A DNA stretch of 25,176 nucleotides, from positions 1 through 25,176 of the IMG/VR virus record IMGVR_UViG_3300042391_001145, one strand, 5' to 3'. Shown here one piece after another: positions 6,263-17,959 of this stretch (positions are counted from its first letter, which is position 1; the number at the start of each line of letters is the position of its first letter). The position numbers and the translations under genes are program-made. This DNA comes from a virus. The notes under the pieces are model-generated. The model saw only the letters and a program-made list of their open reading frames with translations, was not told the DNA's origin and searched no databases.

Positions 6263-9200
6263 GTGGGAATTAGGATTGACCCGAAGCTACTAGCTGGGTC
6301 ACGTTCCTCATCTGGCCTTGACCCCGTCGCTTCACTAAACGCTATTGAAGGACAGCGGGCTCGCTTTGCTGGGGCGCAAAACCAAAACTGGGATCCTGTG
6401 TGGCGCCCAATCGAGCACCTTTTTAACGCAATGACTGCGCTAAACTCGGGCGCAAAAAACGCACAGCTTCGTGGACGTGAGGCGGTTCTAAATACAGGAG
6501 TTCGTAGCGATCAGGCCATAAATGAGATTCCGGCCGAAAAATTGCCTGGAGCGGTAGCCGCGAGCGTTGCAGGCAACGTAGGCGGTTTTGTCGACGGCTT
6601 CTTTGCGTCATTTAACAATGACTCCGAGTCTCCAAACTACATGACTGGGGCAAAGTACCTTGAGGCCAGAAAAGACCTTGACAACAGGGACAACCCGAAC
6701 TATGTCGATACTGACAACAACTGGGGAACCGATCAGCAGCTGGCTGCAAGTGGATTTATATTTGACATCGTTGGAGACCCGCTCACGTACCTGCCTGGTG
6801 GAATTTTTCTGGCTGCTGGACGTGGTGCAGTACGTGGCGCGCAGGCTGCTGGACGCGCAGCAAAGGCTGTAAAAGCAGGACAGGAAGCTACAGGCCCGAC
6901 GTCGCGAGTTCTTGGCGCAATGCGCGGCGTGGTTTATGGTGGCGACGAGACCTACAAACTTGGCAAGTTTAGTAAGAGTGTTTACCCGGTCGGGCTTAAG
7001 TCGTGGAAACAGCGACGCGACTATGAGGCGTTTACTCGAATTAAAAACAACGCGGGGCTTAGCGACGAGCAGATGCTGGCTCTTACTGCCGGGAAAACTG
7101 GTTATAAGCGTTTTACCGAGGAGATACTCCCTGGACTGCGGAAGCTTTACGGAGATGACTATCTTAGCGAAGTGACCCCCGCAACCCTTAAGCGTATTGC
7201 CGGCCAGGGCGGGCGATACTCAATCTTTACCCCCGACGCAACAAAGCTTCGTGAGGGCTACGTTAATTTTGCTTCCGGAGGAGAAGGCGCCCGCATCGCG
7301 ACATCCGGCATTGCAAAGGGGGCGGTAACTAGTGCGGTAACCGGAATGCCAATTAGAGCCAAGCGCAGCACTCGTGCACGTGTTGACGCAATGGATAAAC
7401 GATTTGCTGACGAGACCGCGCTCAGCGAAAGCGAAATCTTGCGTTTTGATGTTGAAAAGCGAGGCGAAGCGCTCCGTGTGGAGCTTGCAGATCTCCAGGC
7501 TCAAAAAGCCGAGCGTGTAAGCCAGCTGGGTAGAGCAATTGACGAAACGGCTCCGGCTACGAGGGCGGCAAGTCGCGAGATCATTTCGGAAGAAATGGAT
7601 ATCGCTCGACAGGCAACTATCGACAAAGATCTAGAAATAGATAATAGGATCACCGAACTTGAAGCGGAGCTTCAGACAGTTACGGCAAAGGGTCTGGACT
7701 ACAGGCTTCGCGCAACCGCAATTGCGGCTGAGCTTGGGCGTGGACGTGGCACAACCGAAGAGCTTGCTAGCGAGATTGAGCAGGTAACAAATTATCTTGC
7801 TGAGACCGGCGTAAAGCACGGCGGAATTATTGGAATGACAGGACCGGAGCACGCTGCCCTGCGCGCAATCGACGACGATCTTTCGCTTACCCCTGGCGCA
7901 ACGCAGGTGTTGCTTGGGGCAATTCACGGGGCTTTAGAGAATCAAGACATTGCCAACACTCTTATTGGAAAACTTGAAACGGGCGAGTCGTTTGGCGTTA
8001 AAGAGCTTATTAGCCACTTCTACGGCGTCAAGAAGATTCCAAACTTAAACCTTAGCAAGCCCGAGGTAGAGTTCCTTGTAAACGTAGTTGACTCTATTCT
8101 GTACAAAATGTGGGACATTACCCGCGTCGCCAACTCCTTCCTTGACGAAATGGCTTCCGGAAAAGCAGCCGGGGCTGTGGGCACCATGGACGAACTCGTT
8201 GGAAACGCCGTTTCCGAGCAGGCTGCTCTCATGATCAAGGAAAGCTCAGAGTACCTAGTTCATTACGATTCCAGGCTTTACCGAATGACGCCGGAATACA
8301 TGGATCAAAACCCCGGCGAAGTTCAGCAAATTCGGGACGCTATCGCACAAATCGAAGCGTCAATGCGCTTCCTAGAGCGAGGGGGATCGCCAACAAACAT
8401 TCACCTCGCGCCGTTCCTCCTCATGGGTGGCGCTGAAGCCGCCGCACGCGCAGCCAGGGCGGCAGGTATTGATATCCGCCACGGTGCAGGATACGCCGAA
8501 GTTATTAAAGAAAACACGTCAGATGTACTCAAGGCGGTAGATCGGTACGACGCTACAGACGCTCCTCTTGAAGTAAAAACAAACGCAGTCCGAGACTCAC
8601 TCGGGCAGCTAATTGACGCACACAGCGGCGCTGGCGCTCTAATGGATGAAGCGGCCGCACTTCTCGGCGTGTCTCGCTCGCAAGCCGTAGCAAAACTAAT
8701 CGACGTCGCAACAGGATCATTTAGACCACTAAAAGACGCAATATTTGACGAAACCACGTACGCAAAACTGATCATTATCCTTGCAAAGCTCCCAATGGAT
8801 CTTCCCGGGATTTCCAACGTGGCCAGGGAGCGCGCGTTCGGCCTGTCTGAAATGACGGAACTTGGCGTATACGGTTTAGAGCGAAACTTTGACGAGGAAG
8901 CCCTAAAGCGCTACGGACGCGACATGCTGCGCCTGTTTGAAACCGGTGGTGGCTATACCCCAGAAACAAAGCCGCTTGGAGGAATGGACTCAATAGGCGA
9001 CTCGGTTGGACTGGACGCTATCTCAGACGCACAGCGTGTGGCTGACGACATGGGCGACAACCTTGACGGACCCGTTACCGAAATGCCTTCTAGCGAGGTT
9101 GGCGGTGGGCGTCTCGATCAAATGGGATTTGGCATGGGCGGAGAAATTGACGGCCTTGACACGCAAGGCGGCTATGCTGCGTTTGATATTTTTGGAAACA

Positions 9201-12200
9201 TTGTTGCTCGCGGAAAAACTGAAGACGAACTGCTCGACAACTTTGAGCTTTACCGAGGCGCACAAATTCGCCAGGTCGCAGAAGCAACCGCAACCAGCAT
9301 GAACGCCGCAATTAGCGGGCGACACCCCTCCTACAGTGGCGTCGTTTACGACGACTTTATGGACTATTGGGAGTCCGAGCTAGCCTCCGTGCTTGCCGGC
9401 AATAGAACCGCAAACATCTTTAACCTAGGCGCAGATACAGCGCTTAGGGGCAAGGGCGTCCGAGACGACATAAAGCGGGTTCTGGCAAACACCCCCGCCG
9501 AGCTAGGCGACACAGAAATGCGTCTCTGGGGCGAAACGCTTCTTTTCCCCGGGAAAGACACATCAATTCTGTCCTTTACTCACGAGGCTGCCTTTAAGAT
9601 TGGCGCTACAGAATACCGTACCGGCGCTCACGCTTTTGTTTCAGAACAACTTCCTGCCGGAAGTCCAATGAGGGCAGAAGTTGCTGCACTGCAAACCGCC
9701 GAAGAGGTCATGGATTACTTTAAGGGAGTTAAAGAATCTGATTTAGATCCGAAGTTTGTTGGCGATGGCAGGTGGCGTGAATACGCAAGAGTTGCAGGAC
9801 TGATTGTTTCGGCAAGATCAAAGCTGCCGGGGTTTGACGAAGCAATTGACAAAACCGGATTCTCCAACATTATTGAGTCCATTAACCGAATGCTGGGTGC
9901 GGATCTTAAGCCGATAGGCTACACAACTCGCACAGTTGGCCAGATGAGTGGCGCAAACATTGTAGGCAAAGCGCTGATGCGTTACCGCGCCAAACGCAAG
10001 GGGTACGCTGACACGGTAGCCGGCAAGAGCTTCTTTAAGGCGGGACAACAAGGATCCGGCCTCCCGGCAGTTCCTGGCGGTCCTGAGGGCTTCGCGAGGA
10101 TCGACGAAGAGTTTAAGGCGCTGACTGGACGCGACCCTGAGATCCCAATTTCCGACCACGTGTTGGGCTATGCAAGAGTCCCGCTTCCGCTTGAAGACTG
10201 GATTCGCACGATTCAGGTAGTTGCAAGCTCGGACTCGGTTGTTGGCGGCAGCAAACGTGGCGGCAAATTCTTTGATCAATACCGACTTGTAGCAGAACGC
10301 TTAAAAATTCCAATTCTTAAAGAGCAGGTAAAGCCGGGTGGGCTTAAGCCGGGGCAAATTGCGCCTGCACTGCCAGCTGCGCTTCTAACGTCGCCTGGTG
10401 CAATTTCCGCATACCGCAACTACTTGTACGAGTTCCAGCGCTACGTAAAACTGGATAAAGAGTCGGGCGTGCTTCTGCGCGAAGCTGAGGCAAAAGGCAA
10501 GCTTGGCGAGAGCCTTCCGTTTACTAAGTACCAAATGGGTCTTGCCCGCGGTGAAGCCGGAAACCTCTACGGGGTAGATCCACTTGGGCGAACTTTCCGT
10601 AGCGGAAAAGTCCGTCCGGAAGACGAAATAACCGCTCAATCGGTTGACGCGTTTGATGGACCAACGTATCAAATTGACGGTGAGGGTGAGCGTATTTCAA
10701 TCTACGCACCACTTGCGGCAATTCTTCGAGACGAAAAAGACATAAACACTCTAGACAAAATCATTTCGTGGGCAAACCTAAATGGTGGCGACACCGTCGG
10801 TTTTGAGTCGGCAATAGAAGACGCCTTTGGGCTACCAATGGCCGATCAAATTATTCCAATGATTCGAGCCATCCACGGACAGCACAAAATGTGGGGGCTT
10901 ACGGAAACCAGCGCCAAAGCAATTAACGAAATTCGCAGCGCAATCCTTGGAAACGGAGCTGCCGCTCGCTTGATCCTAGAAGACCTGGCTCCCAGGCTTC
11001 AGGTCGCCAAACTTACGGTAAAAGAAATAAAGAAGCTTATTGAGCAAGCCGACGGAATTCAAACCGACATTAAGGCCGGATCCAGGGCTGCCCTCGCTGA
11101 AGAGGTTATTAACGGCGAAATGATGCTGGAGCTTACTAATCCAGCTTCGTACATTGGCGCCATGATTATGCACGTAGCTCGAAAGATTGACACATCCGTT
11201 GATTACCGATCAGTAGACCCACTGCTTGAACGCCCGTGGGAAAGGTTTATTGGAAATAGGTGGGATCCAAAAACTGAAACTTGGATAGATGACGGATTTG
11301 ACGATCCAGAAGATCTTGCAAGACTCTTTGACACCCCCATGAGCTTTAACCGTCTTAACGAAGTTAGCCTCATGGAGCTGTCAAATCTAACCGGGATTGA
11401 CGTAACCGACCTATTTGCCATCTCCGAAAAAGCTCGCGGTTTCTTGACCGTTGACGAAACTGGCAAGGAAATTCTTAAAGGATCGTTTGACGAATATCGT
11501 GCGCAAATGACGACAATCATTTCCGATATTCTGCGTGCGCCCGTATTCCAAGCTGAAGAAGAACTCTCCAGGGACGCCTTGCTTGCCGCGTTGCGTTCGC
11601 CTGCAATTCGCCTTGAGGCAGAACGATCAATTGTTGCCGCAAATTCGCGCAACAACTGGAAAAAAGTAAAAACTGTCAAAGCCCCGCAGGGGAAGCTTTC
11701 GGACGAAATGCTGCAGTCGATGAACAAAAAGCTAAAAAGCAAGAATCAGCGTTGGGTGCGTTTAAGTCCTCGAGAAATAGTTCTTCAAGAACTGGTTGAC
11801 ATAAACACTGGGTGGGTAAAGTCTGCCGGATACACGTTTGATAAATTCCTTGAACGGGTACAGGCAGTCTTAACTGGCCAACAGATTGGTGGCGTCAAGT
11901 CAGACCAGTTTGACATCGGCGTTGGGCGAGCGGCGGCACGCGCACGAATGCTGCTGAACATTAACGAATCAGGTCAGGGCAACCTGATTGTTGGCCAGAT
12001 CAACAAGCAAAACGTCGAGAAGTTCCTGGACGAATCCGAAATGAATATTGTGCGTCAAACGGCAAGCGTTAGCGACACCCTGGTTCTTGGTGGGGATCGT
12101 CTTGCCGTAGAGCTTTCTTCACTGACGCCCGAGCAGCTCGCCGGCATTCGAACCCAATGGCCCGAAACGGCAAGACAAGAAACTGCTCTTGCAATTGAGG

Positions 12201-15200
12201 CAGTGCGTAAAAACACAAACCCGGCGTACGTACAAATTGCCAAAGCAATCGACTCTCGCCTGCGCCCCATTATTAGAAAGTCAATTGCCGACACGGTACA
12301 AAAGTTGTGGAAAGAAAAGAAGTACACGGCAATTGGGCCCGACGTAGACCGGGTAATAACGTATGCCGTTATGCGCGATCTTGAAGCGGTCGGCAGGCGC
12401 GCAAACTTGGCCCCGCAAGAAATTGCCGACCTAAAGGTTCTAGCCCTAAAGATTGCAGACGAAGTCTACGCCGAGGTTGGGGCCCACCGCGTCGCCGGAC
12501 TTACGCGAAACAACGTTGGTAAGTACAAATTTAGTCTTGACAACCGAGTTGACTGGGCATACCTAAGCTTCTCTGACGTAATTACGTCACTCAGAAACAC
12601 TGGCGACACTCGGGTATACCGAACGCTTCTTGATGAGATTGACAAGGGAATTACAATCCCAAGCAACATAATCGCGGAAATGGGAGCACTCGCAATCAAG
12701 CTCAGCGAGGCGCGCAAAGCTGGAGCGAAAATAACACCGGCCGATGCGTCAGCAATTATCTACCACTCCCTTATTGCGTCAATCAAAGCCGTTCCTGAGG
12801 GAATCTTTACTCGCCCAGGAGCGGTGTACGACAACGTCTTGGCGGGCACTGAGGGCGCGTTGCCAACTACCGAACTGGGAGCGCAAACACTTTCTGAGAT
12901 AGCAATGGCTCTGAGTGATCCTAAGTTTGCCGAAAACCTTTTCGGACGACACATGATCAACGCCGGAAGGGCGCTGTCCGAGGGCGTCGCCGTAGGCGAA
13001 CGCGACCTGGCTGCGTCAGTACTAAAAAAGATACTCGACGCCAAGATGGAGTTTGGCGGAACACTTGACGGGTTCATTGCCAAGATTATTGAGGCAACCC
13101 CCGAGTTGCGCAAAGCAATCGTGGATTCCAGAATCAGCCCGGACTCCCCCGTTGCGCATGCTGCAAAGCTTGCAGTACAGCGAGGAATTGGTCAGGTTTC
13201 TAGCGCTATTGACGTCAATGTTTCACGTGTAACACGACGAATGGATGTTGCCGCAGAAGAGGCGGCGGGTAAGAACCCCGCAACGGTGCGCTCTATCATG
13301 TCAACTGAACGCGCCAGGCTTGCCTCCCAGCGACAGGCGCTCGCCAACAAGCTCGCCGGCCAAAACACAATCATTCGAATTACCCAGCTCGCCGCAGCAG
13401 GAGACCCTGCGTCAGTTCAGGCCGCTTTTCAGCATGGAATTAACCACCTTGAATCAACCATGCAGACCAGCCTTCACCTTGCCGCAGTTCTTAACGGAGG
13501 CAGCAAGTACGCAGAAGTGCTCGCAACGCAACGACAGCTGGCGACAGCACTAGCCGACGAAACCGCAATTGCAGACGGTGCAATGAGGCGCTCGCAGGAG
13601 ATTGACAAGATGATCTCCAAGACACTCCTGGGCAAAAACAACTGGAAAATGCACATCCGCGAACTTGCCAAGAAGAGGATCCGCGAGCGCATCAAGCAGG
13701 GCGACGCAGATATCCAGAAGTCGGCCATGGACCCAGCGCGCCGACGGCGAGCGGCCATGATGCAGTCGCGCCTGAAGAACTACGAGCAAAAGATTGATAG
13801 CGAAATCCAGGAGATTCAATCCGAGATCTCCGCGCTCTACGGAACCGATGTAATGAACGCATTAGCGGGGCGCTTGCCTGCTGATACTGCTCGAGTTGTT
13901 ATGGCTTCATACCGCGATGATGGAGCGGTAAACAAAATTCACCGAATCGTATCCGGCGAAGCGGGCATGCAGGAAATTGCAAGCATCAGGGCTGGTATCG
14001 AAGGCTCAATTGACAACAACTACAATAACTACGAAAAGTTGGTTGAGCGAACATTTATTGATGGAGCGCTGGCGTTTAACGGTGACACTGAAGCGTTTGT
14101 GATTTGGAGCAACGGAATCTTTAACAGGCTGTTTGGGTACGACCTAAATGACCCCAAGCCATTTGCAACCCTGGAGGAAATTCTTTCCGAGATCACAGAA
14201 AAACCCCTCCGCAAATTTATTACTGACATGCACCACTACGCGTCGTACACGGTAGGCAGTGAGTCAAAACTCCTACAACGAACAGGCTTAGATGGCAAAT
14301 GGATTAACGGGCACATTACAAGTGGCCCACTTGGAGTAACAGCTGCAGCGCGTTTTGATGAATTCGGCACAGGACCGCTAACAGCGCGTCAAGTTTCGGT
14401 AAACGTCCACAACATGATCACCGCACCAGCCGGAACTGGTGGCGGTGGTGCGGACTGGATGACAATCGTAAAAGGTTACGGTTGGAGCTTCCACCACGCA
14501 AGCCTGGTCCCCACTTTGGGCGCAGAGTTTTCCGCACGGTTTGGGCACACTGCGCTAGGTTACGACAACGCGGCCGAGGCAATCGCTGACGGATTTGTAG
14601 CAATCAAAAAAGAGGGCACACTAGCGTCGTGGCTTGACCCAAACGAGCTTTACGAGCCTGAATTTCTCCGCCGTATGGCAAACATGGAAAGACTGCTAGA
14701 CACTGACAACCGGCCAACGTTTAAGGGGTCTAAAAACTCCGAGGACTTCTTGAAGTGGATGGGTCGACTTGACAAGGCAACGGGAGCAATTAAAGCCTCA
14801 TTAACTATTTGGCGTGCGGGGCACCACGTTGTAAGCGCAATGGGTGAGGCGCTCATGAACACCCTCGACGGTGTTTTTAATCCTTACCGTTACGCTCAAG
14901 CGGCAAAAGTAATGGGATCAGTTGGGGAGTTCCGTCCGGGCAATGTGTTTGGCCACAACTACGAAATCCCACTAATGGAGTTCTCCGACGGATACAAGTT
15001 TGACGACGTAGCTGATGGGGTTCCTGGAATTAAAATAACAATTGCAGGTAAGCAAAAAGTTATCTCCTTCCAAGAGGTCTACCGAATGCTTAACGACAAG
15101 GGGCTGCTGCTTAACAACAACACTGCAGAAGACCTTTTTGTTGAAGGCTTTAGGGCACTTCCGGGCAGGAACAAGGCGTCGGGGATACTTGGCAATATCA

Positions 15201-16111
15201 TGCGAATGAACGAAGGGCTCGGCGCCTTTTCGGCCCGACGCGACAACATCTTCCGTATTGCCCACGCAGTCGACATTATCCAGCGAAAGTCGCACAAAAG
15301 CCTAGGCGCACTCGTTGACGAACTAAGCAACACAATCCAATCGTTCCACCCAACAATGCAAAGGCTTTCGCCGTCCGAGCGTATCTACGCTCGACGCATC
15401 TTCTTCTTCTACACCTGGCAGAAAATGGCCGCAACAGCAATCGTTAAATCCATGTTCGAGCGTCCCGATATGTTTACGATTCCGGCAAAGGTAATCTACA
15501 ACATGTCTATAGCAATGGGCGGAGACCCACAAAGCATTGGGCAGCCAATGCCTAACGATCCTCGCCTCGCTGGATTTGCTGCGGCAAACGTACTAGGTCC
15601 AAGCTGGTACAACGAAGACGGATCAATCTGGGGCTTCTCTATGAACGCTCCACAAATGGATATTTTCTCCAACCTGGTAGGTTCCCTGTATTACGACCCT
15701 TCGTACAGTGCTGGCGAAAACATTATGAGGAGCGCGGGGGAGTTCCTCGGCGCAAACACTGCCGGACAATACTCGCCAGCCATTAACTACTTCACGGCCG
15801 CAACTACTCAATCGGAATTCCGCCTTGGCCAATGGCGCCCAATTGAAGACGCCGGACAGTACATTGTGGACAGCACCGGACTGGGCAGTTACTCTCGCGC
15901 AACAGGAATCGGCTTGATTAATAACAACGGATTCCTCGGGGCCAGGACCGACGATCGAACTCCAGAAAAGCAATTTCTTAGCGGCGTAAATTCAATTGTC
16001 GGACTTAAGTTTACCGAGTGGTCTGAATGGTACGAGCGAGCCAACAGAGAGCGTACGGAACGCTATAACCGAGAACTCGAAGAATTACAAAAAAGATTAC
16101 TGATGCCGTAA
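6263..16111 (+). CDS. giant virion-associated (internal / ejection) protein, 3282 aa
   Basis: The GTG start has AGAGG about eight bases upstream. Recognisable parts: an N-terminal segment with VWRPIEHLFNAMTALNSG (about residues 45-65); a hydrophobic 'FDIVGDPLTYLPGG' plus Ala-rich helix (about 165-210); a coiled coil rich in Glu/Arg/Leu (about 395-490); a second helical and very basic region (about 2345-2530); a segment WRAGHHVVSAMGEALMNTL (about 2850-2870); and a C-terminal motif YARRIFFFYTWQKMAATAIV near residue 3045, followed by a 'FERPDMF' turn. The first and last motifs resemble those I recall in very large polyvalent or internal proteins of tailed phages, thought to be packaged and ejected with the DNA. 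I found no HExxH, lysozyme or single-subunit RNA polymerase signature. It takes up 39% of the window. Confidence 0.75.
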   Translation: MGIRIDPKLLAGSRSSSGLDPVASLNAIEGQRARFAGAQNQNWDPVWRPIEHLFNAMTALNSGAKNAQLRGREAVLNTGVRSDQAINEIPAEKLPGAVAASVAGNVGGFVDGFFASFNNDSESPNYMTGAKYLEARKDLDNRDNPNYVDTDNNWGTDQQLAASGFIFDIVGDPLTYLPGGIFLAAGRGAVRGAQAAGRAAKAVKAGQEATGPTSRVLGAMRGVVYGGDETYKLGKFSKSVYPVGLKSWKQRRDYEAFTRIKNNAGLSDEQMLALTAGKTGYKRFTEEILPGLRKLYGDDYLSEVTPATLKRIAGQGGRYSIFTPDATKLREGYVNFASGGEGARIATSGIAKGAVTSAVTGMPIRAKRSTRARVDAMDKRFADETALSESEILRFDVEKRGEALRVELADLQAQKAERVSQLGRAIDETAPATRAASREIISEEMDIARQATIDKDLEIDNRITELEAELQTVTAKGLDYRLRATAIAAELGRGRGTTEELASEIEQVTNYLAETGVKHGGIIGMTGPEHAALRAIDDDLSLTPGATQVLLGAIHGALENQDIANTLIGKLETGESFGVKELISHFYGVKKIPNLNLSKPEVEFLVNVVDSILYKMWDITRVANSFLDEMASGKAAGAVGTMDELVGNAVSEQAALMIKESSEYLVHYDSRLYRMTPEYMDQNPGEVQQIRDAIAQIEASMRFLERGGSPTNIHLAPFLLMGGAEAAARAARAAGIDIRHGAGYAEVIKENTSDVLKAVDRYDATDAPLEVKTNAVRDSLGQLIDAHSGAGALMDEAAALLGVSRSQAVAKLIDVATGSFRPLKDAIFDETTYAKLIIILAKLPMDLPGISNVARERAFGLSEMTELGVYGLERNFDEEALKRYGRDMLRLFETGGGYTPETKPLGGMDSIGDSVGLDAISDAQRVADDMGDNLDGPVTEMPSSEVGGGRLDQMGFGMGGEIDGLDTQGGYAAFDIFGNIVARGKTEDELLDNFELYRGAQIRQVAEATATSMNAAISGRHPSYSGVVYDDFMDYWESELASVLAGNRTANIFNLGADTALRGKGVRDDIKRVLANTPAELGDTEMRLWGETLLFPGKDTSILSFTHEAAFKIGATEYRTGAHAFVSEQLPAGSPMRAEVAALQTAEEVMDYFKGVKESDLDPKFVGDGRWREYARVAGLIVSARSKLPGFDEAIDKTGFSNIIESINRMLGADLKPIGYTTRTVGQMSGANIVGKALMRYRAKRKGYADTVAGKSFFKAGQQGSGLPAVPGGPEGFARIDEEFKALTGRDPEIPISDHVLGYARVPLPLEDWIRTIQVVASSDSVVGGSKRGGKFFDQYRLVAERLKIPILKEQVKPGGLKPGQIAPALPAALLTSPGAISAYRNYLYEFQRYVKLDKESGVLLREAEAKGKLGESLPFTKYQMGLARGEAGNLYGVDPLGRTFRSGKVRPEDEITAQSVDAFDGPTYQIDGEGERISIYAPLAAILRDEKDINTLDKIISWANLNGGDTVGFESAIEDAFGLPMADQIIPMIRAIHGQHKMWGLTETSAKAINEIRSAILGNGAAARLILEDLAPRLQVAKLTVKEIKKLIEQADGIQTDIKAGSRAALAEEVINGEMMLELTNPASYIGAMIMHVARKIDTSVDYRSVDPLLERPWERFIGNRWDPKTETWIDDGFDDPEDLARLFDTPMSFNRLNEVSLMELSNLTGIDVTDLFAISEKARGFLTVDETGKEILKGSFDEYRAQMTTIISDILRAPVFQAEEELSRDALLAALRSPAIRLEAERSIVAANSRNNWKKVKTVKAPQGKLSDEMLQSMNKKLKSKNQRWVRLSPREIVLQELVDINTGWVKSAGYTFDKFLERVQAVLTGQQIGGVKSDQFDIGVGRAAARARMLLNINESGQGNLIVGQINKQNVEKFLDESEMNIVRQTASVSDTLVLGGDRLAVELSSLTPEQLAGIRTQWPETARQETALAIEAVRKNTNPAYVQIAKAIDSRLRPIIRKSIADTVQKLWKEKKYTAIGPDVDRVITYAVMRDLEAVGRRANLAPQEIADLKVLALKIADEVYAEVGAHRVAGLTRNNVGKYKFSLDNRVDWAYLSFSDVITSLRNTGDTRVYRTLLDEIDKGITIPSNIIAEMGALAIKLSEARKAGAKITPADASAIIYHSLIASIKAVPEGIFTRPGAVYDNVLAGTEGALPTTELGAQTLSEIAMALSDPKFAENLFGRHMINAGRALSEGVAVGERDLAASVLKKILDAKMEFGGTLDGFIAKIIEATPELRKAIVDSRISPDSPVAHAAKLAVQRGIGQVSSAIDVNVSRVTRRMDVAAEEAAGKNPATVRSIMSTERARLASQRQALANKLAGQNTIIRITQLAAAGDPASVQAAFQHGINHLESTMQTSLHLAAVLNGGSKYAEVLATQRQLATALADETAIADGAMRRSQEIDKMISKTLLGKNNWKMHIRELAKKRIRERIKQGDADIQKSAMDPARRRRAAMMQSRLKNYEQKIDSEIQEIQSEISALYGTDVMNALAGRLPADTARVVMASYRDDGAVNKIHRIVSGEAGMQEIASIRAGIEGSIDNNYNNYEKLVERTFIDGALAFNGDTEAFVIWSNGIFNRLFGYDLNDPKPFATLEEILSEITEKPLRKFITDMHHYASYTVGSESKLLQRTGLDGKWINGHITSGPLGVTAAARFDEFGTGPLTARQVSVNVHNMITAPAGTGGGGADWMTIVKGYGWSFHHASLVPTLGAEFSARFGHTALGYDNAAEAIADGFVAIKKEGTLASWLDPNELYEPEFLRRMANMERLLDTDNRPTFKGSKNSEDFLKWMGRLDKATGAIKASLTIWRAGHHVVSAMGEALMNTLDGVFNPYRYAQAAKVMGSVGEFRPGNVFGHNYEIPLMEFSDGYKFDDVADGVPGIKITIAGKQKVISFQEVYRMLNDKGLLLNNNTAEDLFVEGFRALPGRNKASGILGNIMRMNEGLGAFSARRDNIFRIAHAVDIIQRKSHKSLGALVDELSNTIQSFHPTMQRLSPSERIYARRIFFFYTWQKMAATAIVKSMFERPDMFTIPAKVIYNMSIAMGGDPQSIGQPMPNDPRLAGFAAANVLGPSWYNEDGSIWGFSMNAPQMDIFSNLVGSLYYDPSYSAGENIMRSAGEFLGANTAGQYSPAINYFTAATTQSEFRLGQWRPIEDAGQYIVDSTGLGSYSRATGIGLINNNGFLGARTDDRTPEKQFLSGVNSIVGLKFTEWSEWYERANRERTERYNRELEELQKRLLMP

Positions 16112-17703: not shown

Positions 17704-17781
17704 ATGGAGAAAGAAGACATCGGCGGCTACAGCGTTCCACAGGACCCCATGGACCTGTTGCACTGCGAAAGCTGCCAGTAA
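17704..17781 (+). CDS. 25-aa peptide ending in CESCQ
   Basis: A 26-codon frame with ATG four bases after AGGAG, which itself overlaps the stop of the metallophosphoesterase gene, so translation is coupled. The C-terminal two thirds read PQDPMDLLHCESCQ. I believe 'DPMDxLxCxSCQ' ends recur in tiny actinophage proteins, but this is memory, not a search. The CxxC could bind a metal or form a disulfide. The CESCQ end echoes CKSCQ at residues 5-9 of the upstream protein. Too short for function prediction. Confidence 0.6.
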   Translation: MEKEDIGGYSVPQDPMDLLHCESCQ

Positions 17782-17831: not shown

Positions 17832-17910
17832 GGGGGTGAAGAGGTTCTTCGACGAAGTAAGACCCGCAAGGGAACTACGACGGACTCGGGTTCGACTCCC
17901 GACACCTCCA
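17832..17910 (+). ncRNA. tmRNA-like tRNA-like domain without a tag ORF (mini-tmRNA)
   Basis: Acceptor strands GGGGGTG (17832-17838) and CACCTCC (17903-17909) pair over seven positions with a G3-U70 wobble; the discriminator is A (17910). These are the alanine identity features of tRNA-Ala and tmRNA. The T arm is perfect: TCGGG (17886-17890), loop TTCGACT, CCCGA (17898-17902). No D stem can form. Instead GG plus TTCGACG (17848-17854) matches the conserved tmRNA D-loop motif, and CGGAC directly before the T stem is also tmRNA-like. In place of the P2 helix, pseudoknots and tag frame there is GTA(17857-17859)/TAC(17876-17878), an internal loop, and CCC-GCAA-GGG (17863-17872). CCA is not encoded. 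A canonical tRNA with 17-nt anticodon arm does not fold here. It could instead be a decayed tmRNA or a recombination site. Confidence 0.6.
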
Positions 17911-17918
17911 CAAACAAG

Positions 17919-17943
17919 AAAGCCGCAGCTTAGCTGCGGCTTT
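17919..17943 (-). terminator. bidirectional terminator between converging operons
   Basis: AAAGCCGCAGC (17919-17929) and GCTGCGGCTTT (17933-17943) form an 11-bp stem with a TTA loop. On the minus strand the stem is followed by CTTGTTTG, a fair T-rich tail, and it lies 16 bp after the holin stop. On the plus strand it would end a transcript that carries the tmRNA-like element. Confidence 0.75.
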
Positions 17944-17959
17944 CGAGTTATACAAACGG

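Follow-up and report, generated by a model that had tools for sequence, protein, structure and literature searches.

The window analyzed here is the whole 25,176-nucleotide stretch of viral DNA in IMG/VR record IMGVR_UViG_3300042391_001145. On its positive strand, positions 17832 to 17910 hold a complete tmRNA tRNA-like domain (TLD) of 79 nt from which the mRNA part is absent, as found both by reading the sequence and by comparison with Rfam. The TLD is placed after an operon that ends in a metallophosphoesterase gene and a micro-ORF, and it faces the genes for a holin and an endopeptidase. One terminator-like hairpin lies directly before the TLD and a second lies after it; the surroundings of the element yielded no sigma-70-like promoter. 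The micro-ORF (17704-17781, positive strand) encodes 25 amino acids and ends in DPMDLLHCESCQ. Farther upstream, a 3282-aa ORF occupies positions 6263-16111 of the positive strand; its match to a PHROG of unknown function is confined to the C-terminal part, and its counterpart in the sister phage G055 is 2718 aa long. The features of the locus are as follows.

17704..17781, + strand: micro-ORF MEKEDIGGYSVPQDPMDLLHCESCQ, upstream of the TLD, with an ending shared by about 20 phage loci
17787..17826, + strand: 14-bp terminator-like hairpin just upstream of the TLD, with a weak T run, GTTTAGC (-26.6 kcal/mol, z -4.0)
17832..17910, + strand: TLD-only tmRNA, whole element (Rfam RF00023, 52.8 bits; family model R1, 56.1 bits)
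17832..17838, + strand: 5' strand of the acceptor, GGGGGTG, forming 7 of 7 pairs with 17903-17909, including G3-U70; relatives covary at 4-69, 5-68, and 6-67
17839..17853, + strand: D region without a D stem, with the GG...TTCGAC motif; GG precedes TCGAC in 94 of 97 relatives, independently of the search
17854..17881, + strand: P2 helix with a CCC-GCAA-GGG hairpin cap, occupying the site of the P2, pseudoknots, and tag frame of a full tmRNA (from the sequence, family-wide P2 covariation, and an identical arm in phage L330)
17882..17885, + strand: GGAC, the tmRNA-type junction before the T stem (from the sequence; shared by all relatives, as the search demanded)
17886..17902, + strand: T arm, TCGGG-TTCGACT-CCCGA, 5 of 5 pairs; the two outer pairs covary in relatives
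17903..17910, + strand: 3' strand of the acceptor, CACCTCC (17903-17909), and discriminator A73 (17910); from the sequence, with A73 in 103 of 103 parsed relatives
17918..17944, strand not assigned: 12-bp terminator-like hairpin downstream of the TLD (z -6.5)

The anatomy of the element can be read directly from its letters. All the features of an alanine-type tRNA-like domain are present, namely, G3-U70, A73, the T arm, the TTCGAC motif, and the lack of a D stem. The D region at 17839-17848 is AAGAGGTTCT, which contains the GG and no D stem, and TCGAC follows at 17849-17853. The tag-coding mRNA-like domain (resume codon, tag frame, and stop) and the pseudoknots are absent; their place is taken by a P2/hairpin arm of just 28 nt, with CCC-GCAA-GGG at 17863-17872. 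A73 is directly followed by CAA, and CCA is not encoded. A sequence-only reading of this DNA had described a 79-nt tmRNA TLD without an mRNA part, having a 7-bp acceptor with G3-U70, A73, a perfect T arm, no D stem, the TTCGAC motif, and a GCAA-capped stem, and every one of these elements is borne out by the sequence.

The Rfam tmRNA model, RF00023, scored 52.8 bits over positions 17832-17913 (cut-off, 47 bits; E value, 2.5e-18). The match spans both ends of the model, positions 1 and 374, but skips its middle, for which a short loop is substituted. No other Rfam family reached its own cut-off in the window, and ARAGORN reported nothing at the element. The covariance-model check proposed in the sequence-only reading was thus answered in favor of tmRNA, with tRNA not listed. 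We also used a family model, R1, built from 31 other phage elements. The window element, which was outside the training set, scored 56.1 bits with this model (E value of ~1e-11 in 338 kb). Members of the class scored at least 44 bits, as opposed to at most 37 bits for tRNAs and the ends of full tmRNAs.

Three other assignments were rejected. The element was not classified as a tRNA, given the lack of a D stem and an anticodon arm, the silence of ARAGORN, and tmRNA being the sole Rfam listing (lower-scoring overlaps within a clan are not displayed). It was not classified as a permuted, two-piece tmRNA because its order runs from the 5' to the 3' acceptor strand and RF00023 is listed rather than RF04321. 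A hidden mini-tag was dismissed because a GCN...GCN-stop frame occurs in the arm of only 1 of 97 relatives.

Relatives were collected with several patterns. A 20-base T-arm pattern taken from the window matched 64 IMG/VR contigs, 11 of which contained the same short element; most of the others resemble the ends of full tmRNAs. Patterns joining TCGAC to the T arm across 18 to 48 nt matched 57 contigs in one scan and gave at least 120 rows in another, and parsing of the pattern matches listed yielded 103 distinct elements. One locus, L103, is probably a mis-parsed tRNA. Counted from the pattern scans and from the covariance model applied to fetched loci, at least 164 IMG/VR loci have the TLD-only plan (29, 90, and 45 in three sets, with some contigs being near-duplicates). 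A separate search used only the P2 hairpin and GGAC and was blind to the acceptor, the D loop, and the T arm. It returned 24 distinct matches, and 22 of them have a 7-bp acceptor, the G-U pair, A73, and a full T stem, which argues for selection for charging. When run on eleven TLD loci, ARAGORN did not give a correct call for any of the TLDs. Its tmRNA calls at two loci, L146 and L214, look spurious, as their tags are not of the ssrA type.

G3-U70 is the alanine identity element of tRNAs, and SmpB binds the tRNA-like domain of tmRNA. The alanine identity set named in the sequence-only reading is conserved across the family: G3-U70 was found in 101 and A73 in all of the 103 parsed elements, and neither was imposed by the pattern. 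The compensatory changes that the same reading had called for in relatives were found in the acceptor, the T arm, and the P2/hairpin. Among the 103 parsed elements, acceptor pairs 4-69, 5-68, and 6-67 change in a compensated fashion. In an alignment that was not fitted to the structure, P2 pairs 1 to 5 form in 99, 92, 94, 91, and 84% of the elements, respectively, as opposed to 40 to 47% with shuffled partners. In an alignment of 99 elements that was fitted to the structure, 95% of the pair cells are standard, compared to 67% after shuffling; 19 of the 22 pairs vary on both sides, and the covariation score is 0.67 versus 0.13.

The P2 helix of the window element is itself imperfect (G-C, A.A, A.G, G-C, U-A, A-U), and its two mismatched positions might be taken as a sign of a degenerate tmRNA or a tRNA pseudogene. 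However, an identical imperfect arm is present in phage L330, where compensated changes set the acceptor (GGGGATG/CATCTCC) and the T stem (TCCGG/CCGGA) apart from those of the window element, and compensatory covariation is strong across the family. We consider a pseudogene exceedingly improbable, and both this origin and a chance resemblance were rejected on the basis of the covariation and the hairpin-only search. The single-sequence folding energy of the window element is not significant (z of -0.5), and the case for its structure therefore rests on comparison and not on energy.

We evaluated 50 carrier records. Forty-seven of them had exactly one match above the Rfam tmRNA cut-off, 78 to 83 nt in length, two further records had a TLD below the cut-off, and the last is L103, the probable mis-parsed tRNA. 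No second tmRNA above the Rfam cut-off was found in the 50 records, many of which are fragmentary, and no SmpB gene was found in them either, an absence that is not final in so many fragments. With no SmpB of its own in the carriers, the TLD must depend on the SmpB of the host. Eight isolate phages also carry the element: Streptomyces phages LuckySocke, GiJojo, pSt2308, BRock, Alone3, and Shaeky, Stenotrophomonas phage Jojan60, and Pontimonas phage phiPsal1. GiJojo was included only by virtue of a match to a family sequence, 97.5% identical across 79 bases. In the isolates, the TLD is either unannotated or lies beneath calls for hypothetical proteins. Other phages of the same collection have full or permuted tmRNAs, which the models discriminate from the TLD-only form.

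A comparable pattern was run once over 257 Gb of prokaryote genomes and produced 18 matches, five of which were TLD-only; the other 13 were rejected by the family model, and most of them resemble the ends of full tmRNAs. At least three of the five lie on phage or prophage contigs. The TLD on a Prochlorococcus contig is the same element as that of viral record L160, which is equal to the contig in length, the TLD of a Parafrankia prophage adjoins genes for tRNA-Phe, terminase, and portal, and an Acidimicrobiales contig with a TLD also has head genes. Judged by these comparisons, TLD-only elements form a class of phage-specific RNAs that is widespread, covaries strongly, and conserves its alanine identity. 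A TLD-only element was also seen on a 27-kb actinobacterial (Pseudonocardia) plasmid with a tyrosine recombinase gene (L335:5001-5079).

The sequence-only reading had proposed a search of related phages for the same element, and here its expectation failed. No TLD was found in the sister phages identified through the capsid or the metallophosphoesterase. The capsids of sisters G055 and G061 are 75% and 71% identical to that of the window, and the gene order is common, yet the TLD is missing. At the empty site in G061, just one terminator separates the micro-ORF from the convergent lysis genes. Because these sisters lack it, the TLD of the window, together with its terminator, looks like an accessory insertion rather than a conserved gene of the lineage, and it is probably a horizontally moving element.

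The neighbors of the TLD vary and include genes for terminase, portal, protease, capsid, replication proteins or DnaB, WhiB, and lysis, as well as tRNA arrays; the settings are either tRNA arrays or places among late structural genes. No constant partner gene was found among 1402 clustered neighboring ORFs. This diversity of neighbors suggests that the TLD acts on its own. In rough ORF calls, at loci where both flanks could be called, the flanking genes lie on the strand of the TLD on both sides at 53 loci and on the opposite strand on both sides at 12. A sporadic, accessory spread among unrelated phages may resemble that of counter-defense genes, so that the TLD might decoy or saturate a host defense factor that targets tRNA-like RNAs or charged Ala-tRNA, and not trans-translation. 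However, the features that are kept (TTCGAC, GGAC, and the lack of a D stem) are specific to tmRNA rather than generic to tRNAs, and we regard this explanation as quite improbable.

The micro-ORF in front of the TLD has relatives as well. Its ending, DPM(D/E)xLxC(D/E)SCQ, recurs at some 20 phage loci. A TLD follows at some of them and not at others, and many of these micro-ORFs are directly upstream of a TLD. In L330, the micro-ORF, the terminator hairpin, and the TLD occur in the same order as in the window. In L036 (around position 1814), L328, and L333, the first base of the TLD is also part of the stop codon that ends the preceding micro-ORF; maturation by RNase P would remove the stop at such loci, leaving a non-stop mRNA. 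This overlap in some relatives, along with the location of TLDs next to terminator-like hairpins and inside late operons or tRNA arrays, would suit an RNA-processing or 3'-end element that separates or stabilizes late mRNAs upon cleavage by RNase P and tRNase. Such an element would not need G3-U70, the GG...TTCGAC loop, or a covarying P2, and the position of the TLD relative to genes is not conserved. A role in processing thus appears improbable.

Another explanation is that the TLD is an attachment site (attP) or a captured piece of a host ssrA gene next to an integrase. Cluster K mycobacteriophages, such as Adephagia, do have a sequence like the 3' half of ssrA next to a tyrosine integrase, and these copies share the T arm and the 3' strand of the acceptor with the TLD. 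However, they comprise the 3' half alone, and the Adephagia locus gives no match to the family model or to the Rfam tmRNA model. The sequence-only reading had named this origin as fatal to its proposal; in the window, the record has no tyrosine integrase, and both the 5' and the 3' halves of the element are complete. Across the family, elements are complete on both sides and P2 covaries. Tyrosine integrases are encoded by 8 of the 50 carriers and serine recombinases by three others; 42 lack the former, 47 lack the latter, and 39 have neither, with many of the records being fragmentary. In three of the 50 (L037, L143, and L168), an integrase lies within about 1 to 1.7 kb of the TLD, and the TLD might double as an attachment site there. 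For the class, the attP reading is already largely refuted, and for the window element it is very improbable.

The best explanation, and in our judgment a probable one, is that the TLD functions as an alanylatable, SmpB-binding decoy that blunts trans-translation. Read-through of a late operon during infection would generate a TLD precursor, which RNase P and the enzymes of the tRNA 3' end would mature, with CCA being added. Alanyl-tRNA synthetase (AlaRS) would then charge the TLD through G3-U70 and A73, and SmpB (and EF-Tu) would bind the charged molecule. Because it has no mRNA-like part, such a TLD would be unable to supply a tag. It would compete with the host tmRNA for SmpB and stalled ribosomes, and less tagging and proteolysis would take place in infected cells. 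The transcription, maturation, charging, and SmpB binding of the TLD are predictions, as is the inhibitory effect, which is proposed by analogy with an experiment reported for phage DS6A.

DS6A is listed as "TLD only" in one survey of tmRNAs (PMC4131195). According to a later one (PMC11915505, citing Mao et al. 2009), its TLD-only RNA is said to inhibit the endogenous tmRNA in Escherichia coli. This inhibition is perhaps due to titration of SmpB (PMC4131195, PMC11915505), and it is described as occurring whether or not the molecule is chargeable (PMC4131195). The decoy proposed in the sequence-only reading thus agrees with what these two papers report for DS6A, while the effect of the present element is extrapolated from there. 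A pure titrator of SmpB need not keep G3-U70, and its strict conservation hints at something beyond titration. Furthermore, lambda-immP22 needs trans-translation by its host (PMC2862035). Inhibition of trans-translation is therefore not obviously useful to every phage; this dependence shows that phages do interact with the pathway, though in the opposite sense.

G3-U70 and A73 are retained throughout the family. Titration would not demand so strict a retention of G3-U70, and the TLD might have an active role on the ribosome. In a tagless rescue, the alanylated TLD would enter stalled ribosomes with SmpB, take over the nascent chain, and free it with one or a few alanines and no degradation tag. 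If so, truncated phage proteins would be spared and ribosomes would be recycled. Mitochondrial tmRNAs without a tag frame persist together with SmpB and are thought to be helpful there (PMC11915505). Against this idea, the reported effect of the DS6A RNA was inhibition and not rescue (PMC11915505). We view tagless rescue as possible but unlikely. The more specific version, in which the charged TLD is an active substrate with host SmpB and releases chains on alanine, perhaps repeatedly, as a template-free and tag-free rescue or alanine-tailing RNA, strikes us as rather doubtful. Competition for SmpB remains our preferred reading.

The TLD-only kind of RNA is already known from DS6A (tmID 11587), whose gene, like the present one, amounts to the tRNA-like domain of tmRNA without a tag frame, and in this respect the sequence-only reading had overstated the novelty of its find. 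DS6A, which we compared by its description only, is a single phage, whereas the present class comprises at least 164 metaviral loci and eight isolates with a hairpin-capped P2 and near-invariant G3-U70 and A73. What is new is the breadth of the class, its covariation, the conservation of its alanine identity, and its phage specificity, for which no report was found in the part of the literature searched. The two tmRNA surveys (PMC4131195, PMC11915505) name one TLD-only phage, DS6A. Batch searches in the latest survey followed a main protocol limited to ARAGORN and BLASTN-based matches. ARAGORN misses TLD-only genes, and BLASTN would likewise tend to do so, with the result that they have probably been overlooked.

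One-piece tmRNAs (ssrA; RF00023), including that of Gordonia phage GMA2, have in common with the TLD the acceptor with G3-U70, A73, TTCGAC, GGAC, the T arm, and the start of P2. The window element differs from them in having no mRNA-like domain, tag, or pseudoknots, and in spanning 79 nt as opposed to 374 model positions. The tmRNAs of jakobid mitochondria and Mallomonadaceae plastids also lack a tag frame, and the plastid forms are about 65 bp long (PMC11915505). These are products of organellar reduction thought to serve the cell (PMC11915505), whereas the phage form is a viral accessory RNA. From the breadth of the family and its strong structural conservation, it would seem that decoys acting against ribosome rescue in the host are made by many phages. 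Whether phages generally need to restrain trans-translation can now be tested, as the class is present in culturable Streptomyces phages, and the family supplies many natural minimal molecules predicted to be substrates of SmpB and AlaRS.

Two observations were made at other loci of the collection. The tRNA array of Gordonia phage GMA2 contains a Pistol ribozyme (L237:1854-1910; RF02679, 56.8 bits). In Tunturiibacter phage Tunturi_4, a release-factor-like gene with an RF-1 domain adjoins a permuted tmRNA (L245:1123-1470), and it may be another means by which phages intervene in ribosome rescue.
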